Shown here piece after piece: positions 24,700-53,969 of a DNA stretch of 64,000 nt. The position numbers and the translations under genes were made by a program. This DNA is from Seohaeicola saemankumensis (GTDB lineage Bacteria > Pseudomonadota > Alphaproteobacteria > Rhodobacterales > Rhodobacteraceae), in assembly GCF_021021435.1 (NCBI RefSeq), contig NZ_JAINWI010000009.1, forward strand, positions 1 through 64,000. The letters are read 5' to 3'. The notes beneath the pieces are model-generated. The model saw only the letters and a list, made by a program, of their open reading frames with translations. It did no database searches and was not told the DNA's origin. Position 1 is the first letter of the stretch, and every line of letters begins with the position of its first letter.

Positions 24700-24713
24700 T
24701 TGATTTAGATCAA
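24700..24713. promoter_or_regulatory. Perfect FNR/FnrL-type box between ctaC and tldD
   Basis: TTGAT, TTAG, ATCAA: both half-sites match the FNR consensus exactly. It lies in the 194-bp divergent region, centred about 41 bp before the tldD ATG and about 153 bp before the ctaC ATG. Sequence match is seen; regulation by oxygen is inferred. Confidence 0.7.
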
Positions 24714-24747: not shown

Positions 24748-26169
24748 ATGTCCGATACTCCATTCCGCCCCCTCGAAGACAAGATGGCCCCTGATGCCGC
24801 CCTTGCCCTGCTGCGCGAGGCGACCGCAGGTGCCGATGACGGAGAGCTGTTTTTCGAACGTCGCCGCTCGGAAGCACTGGTATTCGACGATGGCCGCGTG
24901 AAAACCGCCAGCTATGACGCCTCGGAGGGATTCGGTCTGCGGGCCGTACGCGGCGAGGTGACGGGCTATGCGCATTCCACGGAAATTTCGGAAGCCGCCC
25001 TGCGCCGCGCGACGGGCACCGCGCGTCTGGCCGTCGGTCAGGGGGGCGGCACATGGGCCGAGCCCCCCCGCGCCACTAACCGCCACCTGTATACAGAGGA
25101 CGATCCGATTGCGGGCGTCAGCTTTCCCGTCAAGCTGGACACCCTGCGCGAGATCGACGCTTTCGCCCGCGGTCTTGATCCGCGGGTCGTACAGGTCAGC
25201 GCGACTATCGCCGCCTCGATACAGGAGATCGAGATCCTGCGCCCCGACGGTGTCTCGTTCCGGGATGTGCGCCCGATGACCCGCGTCAATGTCAGCGTCA
25301 TCGTCGATCAGGACGGAAGGCGCGAAAGCGGCACTGCTGGCGGCGGCGGGCGCGTGGGCCTTGACGGTCTGCTGGACCCTGCCGACTGGCAGGCCAAAAC
25401 TCGCGAGGCGCTCAGGATCGCCACCGTTAATCTGGACGCCGTGCCTGCCCCTGCGGGTGTCATGGATGTCGTGCTTGGCCCGGGCTGGCCCGGCATCCTG
25501 CTGCACGAGGCGATAGGCCACGGGCTTGAGGGCGATTTCAACCGCAAGGGTACATCCGCCTTTGCCGGTCTGATGGGGCAACAGATCGCGGCGCGCGGAG
25601 TCACCGTGCTGGATGATGGCACGATCCCCGACCGGCGCGGCTCGATCACAATCGACGACGAGGGCACGCCCTCGGCCCGAAATGTGTTGATCCAGGATGG
25701 TGTGCTGGTGGGCTATATGCAGGACCGCCAGAATGCGCGCCTGATGGGTGTCGCCCCCACCGGCAACGGACGGCGCGAAAGCTATGCCCATGCGCCGATG
25801 CCGCGCATGACTAACACCTATATGCTGGGCGGCGAGACAGATCCCGCCGATATCGTGGCCGATTTGAAAGATGGCATCTATGCCGTGGGCTTTGGCGGCG
25901 GTCAGGTGGACATTACCAACGGCAAGTTCGTCTTCTCCTGCACCGAGGCGTACCGCGTCAAGGACGGCAAAATCGGCGCGCCGGTCAAAGGGGCCACGTT
26001 AATCGGAGACGGGGCAACCGCGCTGCAAAAGATTCGCGCCATCGGCAATGACATGGCGCTTGATCCCGGCATGGGCAATTGCGGCAAGGCGGGCCAGTGG
26101 GTGCCTGTGGGCGTTGGCCAGCCGACCCTGATGATCGGCGGCCTGACCGTGGGCGGCTCGGCAGCCTGA
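24748..26169 (+). CDS. tldD: TldD metallopeptidase
   Basis: 473 residues. The zinc motif HEAIGH (H-E-x3-H, residues 253-258) is in GILLHEAIGHGLEGDFNRKG, and GFGGGQVDITNGKFVFSCTEAYRV and GNDMALDPGMGNCGKAGQWVPVGVGQP are typical TldD segments. With its partner PmbA (TldE, not in this window) it forms a cytoplasmic protease that trims modified peptides such as microcins and degrades unfolded peptides. It is divergent from ctaC and followed by a UUCG-looped terminator, so it is probably monocistronic. Confidence 0.95.
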   Translation: MSDTPFRPLEDKMAPDAALALLREATAGADDGELFFERRRSEALVFDDGRVKTASYDASEGFGLRAVRGEVTGYAHSTEISEAALRRATGTARLAVGQGGGTWAEPPRATNRHLYTEDDPIAGVSFPVKLDTLREIDAFARGLDPRVVQVSATIAASIQEIEILRPDGVSFRDVRPMTRVNVSVIVDQDGRRESGTAGGGGRVGLDGLLDPADWQAKTREALRIATVNLDAVPAPAGVMDVVLGPGWPGILLHEAIGHGLEGDFNRKGTSAFAGLMGQQIAARGVTVLDDGTIPDRRGSITIDDEGTPSARNVLIQDGVLVGYMQDRQNARLMGVAPTGNGRRESYAHAPMPRMTNTYMLGGETDPADIVADLKDGIYAVGFGGGQVDITNGKFVFSCTEAYRVKDGKIGAPVKGATLIGDGATALQKIRAIGNDMALDPGMGNCGKAGQWVPVGVGQPTLMIGGLTVGGSAA

Positions 26170-44643: not shown

Positions 44644-46077
44644 TCAGTCCATCACATAGCCATAGGAGCCGTTGAAATCCTGTTTGGCAACCTCGCCGGC
44701 AGCACCGCGCAGGGCAGGCTGACCTTCGCGTGCAACGCGGCCGAACAGGAACAGGTCACGCTCGCTTGGCGGGCGGATCCGGTCGGTGGGCAGGGCCAGA
44801 GCCTCGCCACGGGTCGGGGTTACCAGATGCGCGGTCACGATAATGACGAGTTCCGATTGGGCACGGCGATAGTCCGAACTGCGAAACAGCGCCCCCAGAA
44901 CCGGAATGTCACCAAGCCAGGGCACCTGACTGGCCGTATCGCGGAAGTCGTCCTGCAACAGACCGGCCACGGCAAAACTTTCGCCATCGCGCAATTCAAC
45001 CGTCGTCGATGTCTCGCGACGCTGGAACGCGTCGATGCGGAAAGCGTTCAACTGGATACCGTTGGAAGGGTCCAAGGACGACACAGCGGCCATCATTTCA
45101 AGGTTGATCAGATCGCCATCGACAACACGTGGCACGAAATTCAACTCGATCCCGAAGGGTTTGAACTCGATCGTGATTGTGCCGCCATCCTGTGCGATCG
45201 GCACAGGATATTCACCACCCGCAAGAAACTTGGCTTCCTGTCCGGACAGGGCCACAAGGTTAGGTTCGGCCAAAGTGCGCACAGCACCTTTGTTTTCAAG
45301 GGCTTCCAGAAGAATGCCGACCTCGACAGCCCCTGCACCGAAGCCAAGAAGCATCGCACCGTTATTCGTATTCGCAGGCGGAATACTCCCGGCAAGACCC
45401 GAAGACTGCGCTGCGAGGTTGTTCAAAGAGTTGCTGCCCCCGGACAGGCCCAGATCGTTACTGAAAGCACTGCCGTTCAGCGCCAGCGAGGCGCTGAGGG
45501 ATTTGGATACGCTGCGCTGCATCTCGGCAAAGCGCACCTTTAGCATCACCTGCTGTACGCCGCCCACAGACATCAGGTTTGAAACGCGTTCGGGCGCGTA
45601 GCGCTCCGCCAGATCAATGGCGCGCTGCAGTCGGGCCGCGCTTGAGACTGTCCCCGACAGCACGATACCGTCATTGGCGGTGCGGACTTCGATCTTCTCA
45701 CCGGGCAGGATCTGCCCCAATCTTTCCTTGAACTCGCTGATATCAGCGGCCACACGCACGTCGACGTTTGTGATCAACTGCCCGCTCGCATCCAGCAGCG
45801 TCAGGGTCGTCGTGCCGGGGGCCTTGCCAAGTACATAGATCGTGCGCTCGGACAAAGACGAGATATCCGCAATGGCAGGGTTGGCAATCGACAACTCTGC
45901 AAACGGCGTCTCGCTTTCAACCACAACCGCGCGGTTCATCGGCACTTCAAGACTGGCAGAACGATTGTCCTGCAAAACACGCACGGTCTGCGCCATAGCG
46001 CTAGGGGCGACCAAAATCTGGCCAACCGCAAGGGCCAACCCGAACAGGGTGCCCTTCAAAATTCTATCCGTTTTCAT
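44644..46077 (-). CDS. cpaC: Tad secretin CpaC/RcpA
   Basis: 477 residues. A signal peptide (LFGLALAVGQILVAPSAMAQ) precedes the N-terminal pilus-secretin domain (RVLQDNRSASLEVPMNRAVVVES), a BON domain (IEVRTANDGIVLSGTVSSAARLQRAI) and the secretin domain (LVALSGQEAKFLAGGEYPVPI, IELNFVPRV, and FAVAGLLQDDFR). It forms the outer-membrane channel for the pilus. I chose ATG at 46075-46077, with GGAAAGGCAGG upstream; the frame extends 44 residues further without a signal sequence. A strong terminator separates it from cpaB. Confidence 0.94.
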   Translation of the reverse strand: MKTDRILKGTLFGLALAVGQILVAPSAMAQTVRVLQDNRSASLEVPMNRAVVVESETPFAELSIANPAIADISSLSERTIYVLGKAPGTTTLTLLDASGQLITNVDVRVAADISEFKERLGQILPGEKIEVRTANDGIVLSGTVSSAARLQRAIDLAERYAPERVSNLMSVGGVQQVMLKVRFAEMQRSVSKSLSASLALNGSAFSNDLGLSGGSNSLNNLAAQSSGLAGSIPPANTNNGAMLLGFGAGAVEVGILLEALENKGAVRTLAEPNLVALSGQEAKFLAGGEYPVPIAQDGGTITIEFKPFGIELNFVPRVVDGDLINLEMMAAVSSLDPSNGIQLNAFRIDAFQRRETSTTVELRDGESFAVAGLLQDDFRDTASQVPWLGDIPVLGALFRSSDYRRAQSELVIIVTAHLVTPTRGEALALPTDRIRPPSERDLFLFGRVAREGQPALRGAAGEVAKQDFNGSYGYVMD

Positions 46078-46262
46078 GTGACCTGCCTTTCCGATCACGC
46101 CTCTGTTGCGGGTCTTTGGCGCCCGCCTTTGCCGCAACCATGTGCGATTTCCGTATTTATTGCAAGAATCAATAGCTTCAGGCGCGTTGGTTATGTGGAT
46201 AAACAGCAACAGAGCCTAAAACACGTCTGCAGACTGCCAAACCTGATCGCCGATCTGAATCA

Positions 46263-46360: not shown

Positions 46361-47227
46361 TCAGTTGGTGCAGGGGATACGCAACACCACAACCTCGGCC
46401 CCGCGGCGCACGCGTGTCGAGCAAACGACTTCCTCCTCGACCTGGACAGGCTCCGGGGCTTCGGCACGGACCAGCCCCAGAAGCGCGCGCTGGTCGATTT
46501 CGATCGCTTCTGCCACGGTATCGTCCTTGACGCCGACCAGAGCCAGTGAAAGCCGTCCGGTGGATTGCGCCTGCGCCAACGCCGCCACCTGATCGGGGCG
46601 CACGGATACTGTTACCGTGCGGGCAATCGACGCCTCAGAATTGTCATCATTGGCGCTTTGGTCCACAGCGATCAGGCGCACATTGGCCTCGATCAGCTTG
46701 GTGATATCGCCGCGCAACTCGGCGCCCAGATCACCCGAGACCATACCAGTCCAGTAGACATCCACGCGGTCACCAGGACGCAGGAAACCCGACACACCCG
46801 ATGCCACATCGACCTTGATCGCAAAAGCACGCATCCCGCGCTCAATCCGCGCATTCAGACCAGCATCCTCGCCGGGCAAGCTGACCTTGGTGGCCAGGAG
46901 CGCCTCGTCCTTCTCGATAACGCGCAGCACGAAACGGGGTGCTCTTTCGTTGTCGGGGAAGATATCTTTCAACGTAGCAAAGCTGCCTTCGGGTATTGCA
47001 TTGGCAGGCCACTTCACCGCGCGCACATCCGCTTCTTTCAGGACATCGCCGTAATTCAGAAGTTTCTTTGCAACAAATACCTCCACCGTCGGGATAACTT
47101 CACCCTGCTGGCTTTGCGCTTGGGCAAGCTGCTGTTGATAGGCATCAAACTGCTTTTTCGCCATCATGACGGCAAAACCGGCCAAACCCAGACCGGCGAT
47201 CAGCACGAGGCCAAAAACTGCGCGCAT
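46361..47227 (-). CDS. cpaB: Tad pilus assembly protein CpaB/RcpC
   Basis: 288 residues. A single N-terminal membrane helix (MRAVFGLVLIAGLGLAGFAVMMA) is followed by a periplasmic SAF/beta-clip domain (TVEVFVAKKLLNYGDVLKEADVRAV, then MRAFAIKVDVASGVSGFLRPGDRVDVYWTG), the classical CpaB layout. It interacts with the secretin and the wall. AGGAAAGGAAG precedes the ATG. It begins the minus-strand Tad gene run and is separated from cpaC by 283 bp and a terminator. Confidence 0.92.
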   Translation of the reverse strand: MRAVFGLVLIAGLGLAGFAVMMAKKQFDAYQQQLAQAQSQQGEVIPTVEVFVAKKLLNYGDVLKEADVRAVKWPANAIPEGSFATLKDIFPDNERAPRFVLRVIEKDEALLATKVSLPGEDAGLNARIERGMRAFAIKVDVASGVSGFLRPGDRVDVYWTGMVSGDLGAELRGDITKLIEANVRLIAVDQSANDDNSEASIARTVTVSVRPDQVAALAQAQSTGRLSLALVGVKDDTVAEAIEIDQRALLGLVRAEAPEPVQVEEEVVCSTRVRRGAEVVVLRIPCTN

Positions 47228-52627: not shown

Positions 52628-53035
52628 TCAGCGCTGGATGCTTTCCAGATAGACCAGCAGCGCCGCCAAGGGGCGCGGGACGGGTGACAGGGTTCCGTCT
52701 TCCAGCACAACCGGCACAGTCTCGCCCTGCAACAGAAGTCCGAATTCGGGCATGTTCTCTTCGGGGCTTTTGCGGGTATAACCGTCGATCACCGACAAGA
52801 CGCGTGTGCGCGGGAACACGTCGCGCGCGCGGAAGGTGATCCGCGTCAGATCGGGCGGCGCGGGATCAAGATTTTCCGCGATCAGCCCGTCACCTTGCCC
52901 CGAGGGACCATGACAGATCGCACAGTTCTGATCGAAAACGATCTGCCCCTCGGCCGGTTCCGGCATGTCGACGGTGGCGCAGGCCCCGACGATGGCCAAG
53001 CCTGCAAGGGCTGAGGCGATCAATACCTGTCTCAT
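52628..53035 (-). CDS. Small c-type cytochrome 1 (probable lipoprotein)
   Basis: 135 residues. A possible lipobox ends at Cys19 (IVGAC). Heme is attached at CAICH (38-42) and the axial Met is likely in ENMPEFG. The sequence between (GDGLIAENLDPAPPDLT, DVFPRTRVLSVIDGY) and the end (PVPRPLAALLVYLESIQ) closely parallel the two upstream cytochromes. A monoheme class I cytochrome c of the periplasm or membrane surface; its redox partner is unknown. Its ATG overlaps the stop of the preceding cytochrome gene (ATGA). Confidence 0.87.
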   Translation of the reverse strand: MRQVLIASALAGLAIVGACATVDMPEPAEGQIVFDQNCAICHGPSGQGDGLIAENLDPAPPDLTRITFRARDVFPRTRVLSVIDGYTRKSPEENMPEFGLLLQGETVPVVLEDGTLSPVPRPLAALLVYLESIQR

Positions 53036-53442
53036 TTCTGGATCTCCTGTAAGTAAAGCACCAGATCGGCCACAGAGCGGCCCATCAGCACCGGTTGTCC
53101 GGATGGCGTCTTGAGCGCGACATCATCACCCTGAAAGATCGCGCCGTAAACCGGCATCTCGCTTCCGTGACTGACAAGGGGATCGCGCCCATCAATCCGT
53201 TGCATCACGCGCACAATCGGAAAGACCCCGCCCGATGCGGCGCTCAACCCTGTCAGATCGGTTGGTTGCACCAGAAGAACGGGGGCCATCGGACCTGCGC
53301 CATTCGCGCCGATCCCGTGGCAACTGGCACAATACCACTGATAAAGCGCGGCACCTTCCTCTGCATTCTGGGCACTGGCCTGCGCGGTTGGCAATGCAAG
53401 ACCCAGCATCAGGCCAAGGGTAGCGAGAGGGGCAGTTTTCAT
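53032..53442 (-). CDS. Small c-type cytochrome 2 (periplasmic)
   Basis: 136 residues from ATG at 53440-53442, with AAGGAGCCC upstream (the codon before is TTG, not needed). A signal peptide (LATLGLMLGLALPTAQASAQ) gives a soluble product. Heme motif CASCH (38-42), then GVFPIVRVMQRIDG, axial Met in SEMPVYG, and an ending SVADLVLYLQEIQ shared with its neighbours. Paralogue of the flanking cytochromes; unlike them it lacks a lipobox. Confidence 0.88.
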   Translation of the reverse strand: MKTAPLATLGLMLGLALPTAQASAQNAEEGAALYQWYCASCHGIGANGAGPMAPVLLVQPTDLTGLSAASGGVFPIVRVMQRIDGRDPLVSHGSEMPVYGAIFQGDDVALKTPSGQPVLMGRSVADLVLYLQEIQK

Positions 53443-53470
53443 CAACGGGCTCCTTGCGAAATGCGACAGG

Positions 53471-53902
53471 TTATGGACGTTGCAGACTTTGTAGATAGAC
53501 CAGCATTTCAGCCAACCGCTGCGGGACGGGTTGCGCGCGCCCTTCGGCGTCGTTCAGAACGGTTTCGGGTCCGTCCAGTAGCGCCGTAAATTCGGGCATC
53601 AGATCAAGATCATGTTTGCCCGCATAGCCATAGACACTGTCGGCCACCTCACGCAGCGGAAACACACCGCCATTGCGGGCACTGATCTGCGTCAGATCGG
53701 GCGGCGGCACCGCAAGTCTATCGGCCAGTTCTCCATCCCCTTTGGCGCGGGGGCCGTGGCAGATGGCGCAATAATCCTGATAGGCCTGCGCCCCCGGTTC
53801 GGGTGGAGGTGCAGGCATGCAGCCGGACAGCACCAGACCGCCCGATATTAACATAGCACCTGCTTTCAAGCGCCGCAGGGATCGCGTTTCGGGTTTTTGC
53901 AT
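53471..53902 (-). CDS. Small c-type cytochrome 3 (probable lipoprotein)
   Basis: 143 residues from ATG at 53900-53902; AGAGGAGG is a strong ribosome site eight bases upstream. A lipobox LSGC is at Cys28. Heme motif CAICH (45-49), GDGELADRL, PPDLTQI, GVFPLREVADSVYGY, axial Met in LMPEF, and PVPQRLAEMLVYLQSLQ. First of three tandem paralogous cytochrome genes; an FNR-type box (9/10) lies about 60 bp upstream, suggesting induction at low oxygen. It could donate electrons to, or act with, a terminal oxidase or reductase encoded elsewhere. Confidence 0.88.
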   Translation of the reverse strand: MQKPETRSLRRLKAGAMLISGGLVLSGCMPAPPPEPGAQAYQDYCAICHGPRAKGDGELADRLAVPPPDLTQISARNGGVFPLREVADSVYGYAGKHDLDLMPEFTALLDGPETVLNDAEGRAQPVPQRLAEMLVYLQSLQRP

Positions 53903-53955
53903 CAAGGGCCTCCTCTGCCGTGGGTTGAGTTTGCCAGCAACGCATGAAGCGCGCC

Positions 53956-53969
53956 TTGATCTGGATCAG
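53956..53969. promoter_or_regulatory. FNR/FnrL-type box (9 of 10) ahead of the cytochrome c trio
   Basis: TTGAT, CTGG, ATCAG; only the last base differs from the consensus. It lies between the divergent cytochrome 3 and thioesterase genes, centred about 60 bp before the cytochrome ATG. A start of transcription 41.5 bp downstream would fall about 19 bases before the ATG, leaving the ribosome site in a short leader. Confidence 0.6.

Follow-up and report, generated by a model that had tools for sequence, protein, structure and literature searches.

Three tandem small cytochromes c in Seohaeicola saemankumensis, probably under FnrL control, as possible low-oxygen electron carriers

The window is a stretch of 64,000 nucleotides from Seohaeicola saemankumensis (contig NZ_JAINWI010000009.1), and between 53902 and 52628 it carries three co-directional minus-strand ORFs that encode small cytochromes c. 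The first, P0003 (53471..53902, in an ORF of 53471-53905 with the ATG at 53902), is a predicted lipoprotein of 143 aa with the lipobox LSGC, a CxxCH and a Met-Pro ligand motif. The second, P0002 (53032..53442, ORF 53032-53445, ATG at 53442), has 136 aa and, judged from its sequence by regular expression, a plain signal peptide without a lipobox, so it is predicted to be soluble in the periplasm. The third, P0001 (52628..53035), has 135 aa and is again a predicted lipoprotein, with the lipobox VGAC; P0002 and P0001 are of the paralogue types B and C described below. The start of P0001 overlaps the stop of P0002 by 4 bases and 28 bases separate P0003 from P0002, and with spacing this tight we think it likely that the trio forms a single transcript.

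Each protein has one CxxCH and a distal Met-Pro, and the alignment of the three has 31 invariant columns, which confirms the three tandem monoheme cytochromes of 135-143 residues described in the first-pass annotation. Its reading of the outer two as lipoproteins and the middle one as soluble also held up as a prediction. The motif pattern it had given for all three stood for CxxCH and Met-Pro, but P0002 reads QPTDL and MPVY in place of PPDL and MPEF. All three match Cytochrom_C and Cytochrome_CBB3 of Pfam with E-values of 2e-6 to 5e-5, the Cytochrome_CBB3 match of P0003 falling under the model cut-off. A single CxxCH with a distal Met is the arrangement of class I cytochromes c. We describe the trio as monoheme, Met-ligated class I cytochromes c in which the fold, the Met ligation and the lipid anchors are predicted, and we have little doubt that these are electron-transfer proteins.

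An AlphaFold2 model of P0001, built from a 37-row alignment, is confident (pLDDT 88.7) and class I-like, with a predicted two-strand hairpin (residues 106-120) that precedes the last helix. The model has the helical cytochrome c fold and its Foldseek matches are cytochromes c, none of them in the PDB at an E-value below 0.001; the best was ActE of alternative complex III (6lod_E, E 1.6e-3, TMq 0.54). When the family profile was run against PDB sequences, the top match was 6h5l_B (1e-16), followed by CcoP chains. No NCBIfam model passes its cut-off for P0001, P0002 or P0003, and searches of Pfam, NCBIfam and PDB sequences did not place the trio in a named complex.

The nearest known systems differ in ways that can be named. 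CcoP shares a CBB3-type heme domain with the trio, but the window proteins are separate monoheme cytochromes and score 12.1 to 23 bits against the cbb3 subunit III model TIGR00782, for which the cut-off is 179.95. ActE likewise has a monoheme class I domain, but no other complex III genes adjoin the window genes, and the hairpin predicted ahead of the last helix of P0001 may be a further difference. Cytochromes c2 and cy resemble the trio as small periplasmic c-type carriers between bc1 and the cytochrome c oxidases, and a soluble c2 coexists with a membrane-anchored cy (available text of PMC8361435), as both forms do here. The N-terminal transmembrane anchor of cy is absent from the trio, in which the two anchored members have a lipobox and thus a predicted lipid anchor; FnrL-type control, predicted for the trio, is another difference, and the cy domain of 6xkx_p matches the family profile weakly (11.8 bits).

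Upstream of P0003, on the minus strand, lies an FNR-type box at 53956-53969 with one mismatch (TTGATctggATCAG, or CTGATccagATCAA on the coding strand). Class II FNR promoters have their box centred at -41.5 together with A-11 and T-7. The window has this arrangement: a TTGAT-N4-ATCAA-like box is centred at -41.5 from a predicted transcription start at 53921 (minus strand), which is placed by the conserved geometry, and a predicted -10 element, CAAACT at 53928..53933 (minus strand), has A-11 and T-7, spaced as in the conserved class II arrangement. From the predicted start there would be a 19-base leader with AGGAGG ahead of the P0003 ATG. The window holds 29 box matches at up to two mismatches where 18.9 are expected, so taken singly the trio box proves little and it is conservation that carries weight.

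For conservation, we sampled the upstream sequences of 107 transcription units from 100 loci in three sets (46, 41 and 20); several genomes are counted more than once, one set is mixed with distant subfamilies, and no unit was lost to short upstream sequence. Within 250 bases, a box with up to one mismatch was found in 39 of the 107 units and one with up to two mismatches in 62, against 1.3-1.7% and 8.5-9.7% of control stretches, which were random stretches of the same loci, mostly coding DNA and hence imperfect as controls. A second comparison is independent of these random stretches. At the offsets expected of A-11 and T-7 for a box at -41.5, both bases are present for 30 of the 39 boxes with up to one mismatch, compared with 31 of 225 other boxes of the same loci (p 4.6e-15), and the runner-up offset for the A/T pair reaches 7 of 39. 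A G at -33 is found in 36 of the 39.

Among 80 named loci, 14 have a box with up to one mismatch and 22 with up to two (controls 1.0% and 8.3%). By our own reading of the table, these concentrate in loci with two or three cytochromes (11/29 and 15/29, respectively), while single-cytochrome loci have only 3/51 and 7/51, so lone C genes of the Salipiger and Marivita kind mostly go without a box. The box claimed in the first-pass annotation is present, and it is conserved in relatives.

Published regulons contain members of this family. RSP0775 of Rhodobacter sphaeroides is FnrL-bound and FnrL-activated according to the available text of PMC2908626. In our genome set, of 12 FnrL sites published for R. 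sphaeroides, G051 has 11 at the published positions, with offsets of 5 to 117 bases that mostly rise along the chromosome, and we therefore took its contig C4 as R. sphaeroides chromosome 1; the published ccoN FnrL site is absent from the G051 stretch that was fetched. The site of RSP0775, at 2518608, directly precedes the only family gene in G051 (2518170-2518589), which adjoins a LolD gene. Its position and FnrL site make RSP0775 a member of the family, a single gene by lolD where the window has three. Its R. capsulatus counterpart, as paired in the available text of PMC4634722, is RCC02479, a "lipoprotein" that is FnrL-bound and activated there (13-fold enrichment, 1.42-fold activation); rcc_02479 is named "cytochrome c" near a RegA site in the part of PMC5359404 at hand. 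Its link to the trio is the published pairing with RSP0775. RSP0775 is not named in the available portion of PMC4263372.

Single family members are thus already listed, with no function assigned, among the FnrL targets of R. sphaeroides and R. capsulatus, and the earlier statement that the trio could not be matched to a described system is not fully supported. A literature search, mainly of open-licence papers, found no functional study of the trio. The suggestion of an electron-carrier set induced at low oxygen gains support from the conserved class II box and the published activation of RSP0775. We are highly confident that FnrL regulates these cytochromes. The regulation is well supported, and the biochemical role set out below is a proposal.

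Two further FNR-type matches in the window are perfect. One, at 24700-24713, precedes a TldD/PmbA-type peptidase gene (24748-26169) by 35 bases; the core FNR regulon predicted for alphaproteobacteria includes a peptidase U62 gene, RSP1825. The second, at 47135-47148, is probably a chance match because it falls within coding sequence (ORF 46361-47227, which a secretin gene at 44644-46209 adjoins).

The family is widespread. With a 37-member profile at E 1e-15, it is found in 130 of 198 genera, sampled as one genome per genus, all from the taxonomic family of the window, and a single-protein search at E 1e-3 likewise gives 130 genomes. In the class, 12 of 289 genomes match at E 1e-8, three of those belonging to the window's taxonomic family. 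The contig scan for relatives used the best 80 of 311 relatives.

A tree of 88 members, drawn from 41 arrays, separates a mostly soluble type B clade (support 99/97; 33 rows, among them a small side branch of lipoproteins) and a type A clade of lipoproteins (14 rows, support 97/92). The other 41 rows are called type C, which is no firm clade (84/63). By regular expression, a lipobox is present in 14/14 of A, 39/41 of C, 4/4 of the side branch and 3/29 of B. P0002 is placed in B and P0001 in C, and P0003 sits on a long branch with no supported position, so labelling it as A would go too far. The arrays comprise B+C (13), C alone (10), A+B+C (8), A+C (6), B+side branch+C (3) and B+side branch (1), and on these counts three types together are not the rule. 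Family members are acidic, with a mean net charge of about -5 to -6, and in this they do not look obviously c2-like.

On its upstream side in the window the trio has genes for a thioesterase, a YdcZ-type exporter, a DUF3047 protein and a LolD-like ABC ATPase, and on its downstream side genes for a DUF1194 protein and a ParE-like subunit. The names LolC, LolD, ProS and ParE are ones we take from sequence recognition, with ABC_tran the only named-model match. As had been stated, no oxidase or reductase gene adjoins the trio within the window. In relatives, for which the gene maps come from our own ORF picker and are approximate, a LolC/LolD homologue lies within 3 kb of 31 of 40 fetched arrays, a ParE homologue within 6 kb of 17, both at 14 and neither at 6. 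A search of relatives had been proposed, and it places the cytochromes often beside lolCD. The lolCD pair has a housekeeping function, and its position by the arrays may be fortuitous. We set aside a mobile-element origin because so many arrays share the lolCD neighbourhood.

Five genomes (G025, G086, G173, G082 and G098) have a lolD-side array, which was fetched, plus a separate B gene elsewhere. In four of them the B gene is within 2.3 kb of ParE, and A and/or C are within 3 kb of LolD; in G086, the stretch fetched around the separate B gene (L225) shows no ParE. Each of the five separated B genes has a box of its own with one mismatch, and the boxes of the lolD-side partners have one mismatch (L046), two (L047, L052) or three (L064, L220). 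This looks like an old array broken by rearrangement while the regulation persisted.

Next to the cytochromes or ParE we also noticed a conserved protein, roughly 227 aa long, whose start is a lipobox-like CGRPLT and which has an HExxH motif (HEMTHVWQ); it recurs there in 12 members of one cluster (for example L074 and L224-L227).

If the trio is one FnrL-activated operon, we would expect falling oxygen to let an FNR-type regulator bind the box centred at -41.5 and switch the genes on. The product would be two lipid-tethered membrane cytochromes c and one free in the periplasm, so that one-electron carriers would be locally denser between the bc1 complex and the acceptors used at low oxygen, the cbb3 oxidase above all and cytochrome c peroxidase secondarily. 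We give this reading about an even chance. The evidence that points toward cbb3 is co-occurrence, two linked loci and a published scheme. At E 1e-60, 128 of the 130 genomes that have the family carry ccoN, as do 50 of the 68 that lack it (p 8.5e-8), and in genomes of at least 3.0 Mb the counts are 116/116 and 37/48 (p 5.5e-7); at the curated cut-off the contrast is weaker, 122/130 against 47/68 (p 8e-6), and all of these p values ignore kinship among genomes that are not phylogenetically independent. In Primorskyibacter aestuariivivens (L061/L147) and the MAG M0601 (L142), an A and a C gene lie across uspA from a divergent ccoNOQP; the order of the genes differs between the two, and in P. aestuariivivens the pair lacks a box. 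The earlier proposal that the trio is "self-contained" is thus not fully supported. In D. shibae, the available text of PMC5398030 draws one cytochrome c pool serving two oxidases, with cbb3 induced and aa3 repressed.

From this evidence, low-oxygen carriers with cbb3 as the likeliest acceptor would be the natural reading, with bc1 as the presumed donor; that co-regulation and co-occurrence reflect electron transfer is our inference. That cbb3 is the main acceptor we put slightly short of even. The 50 genomes that have ccoN but lack the cytochromes indicate that cbb3 does not need them, and c2 and cy of R. sphaeroides are reported as efficient donors to both oxidases, which counts against this reading; that paper, Daldal 2001, reportedly found no dedicated carrier. 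We are more tentative still about a wider proposal: that soluble and lipid-anchored paralogues, under FnrL control even when their genes are split between chromosomal sites, form a dedicated low-oxygen pool, a modular layer that would connect bc1 with cbb3 independently of c2/cy and be specific to Rhodobacterales and their kin.

Instead of an oxidase, the main partners of the cytochromes might be the periplasmic cytochrome c peroxidase or other enzymes of low-oxygen stress. CCP_MauG (E 1e-40) is commoner with the family (38/130 against 7/68, p 0.002, kinship again ignored), ccpA genes are FnrL targets in R. sphaeroides in the available text of PMC2908626, and genes for universal stress proteins or Hsp20 are close to some outlying relatives. 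But 92 of the 130 family genomes have no CCP_MauG match at that threshold, and we consider this reading unlikely.

A role dedicated to supplying electrons to denitrification enzymes is less likely again. Denitrification genes are commonly under FNR-type control, and the contig that carries the window also has a NirK gene (G000:C75:274061-275035), but NirK, the one such enzyme compared, shows no association with the family (17/130 against 8/68, p 1.0). We give a similarly low probability to a periplasm-spanning relay, in which outer-membrane lipoprotein members and the soluble one would pass electrons to acceptors beyond the inner membrane. Two lipidated members and one soluble member would suit it, as would lolCD beside so many arrays if that pair is more than a housekeeping neighbour, but no porin or multiheme protein was seen adjoining the window genes. 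That the cytochromes are assembly or copper-handling factors for cbb3, which would also fit the ccoN co-occurrence and the common FnrL control, is very improbable given their simple class I anatomy, the axial Met-Pro motif in 87 of 88 set-1 members and an alignment in which no additional pair of Cys or His residues is conserved.

Schemes of respiration in Rhodobacteraceae usually show a single pool of cytochrome c, as for D. shibae. If there is an extra, oxygen-controlled pool, its presence in roughly two thirds of the genera sampled would alter the scheme of electron flow at low oxygen for a group of abundant bacteria, and R. sphaeroides, where the regulated gene is known, allows a direct test.

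The neighbours of outlying relatives, surveyed in the search for a partner enzyme, are mixed housekeeping and stress genes. Three plasmid-borne relatives in Ruegeria and Leisingera (L254, L255 and L256) are annotated merely as c-type cytochrome; universal stress protein genes lie within a few kb of them, and two adjoin a Na/Pi symporter.
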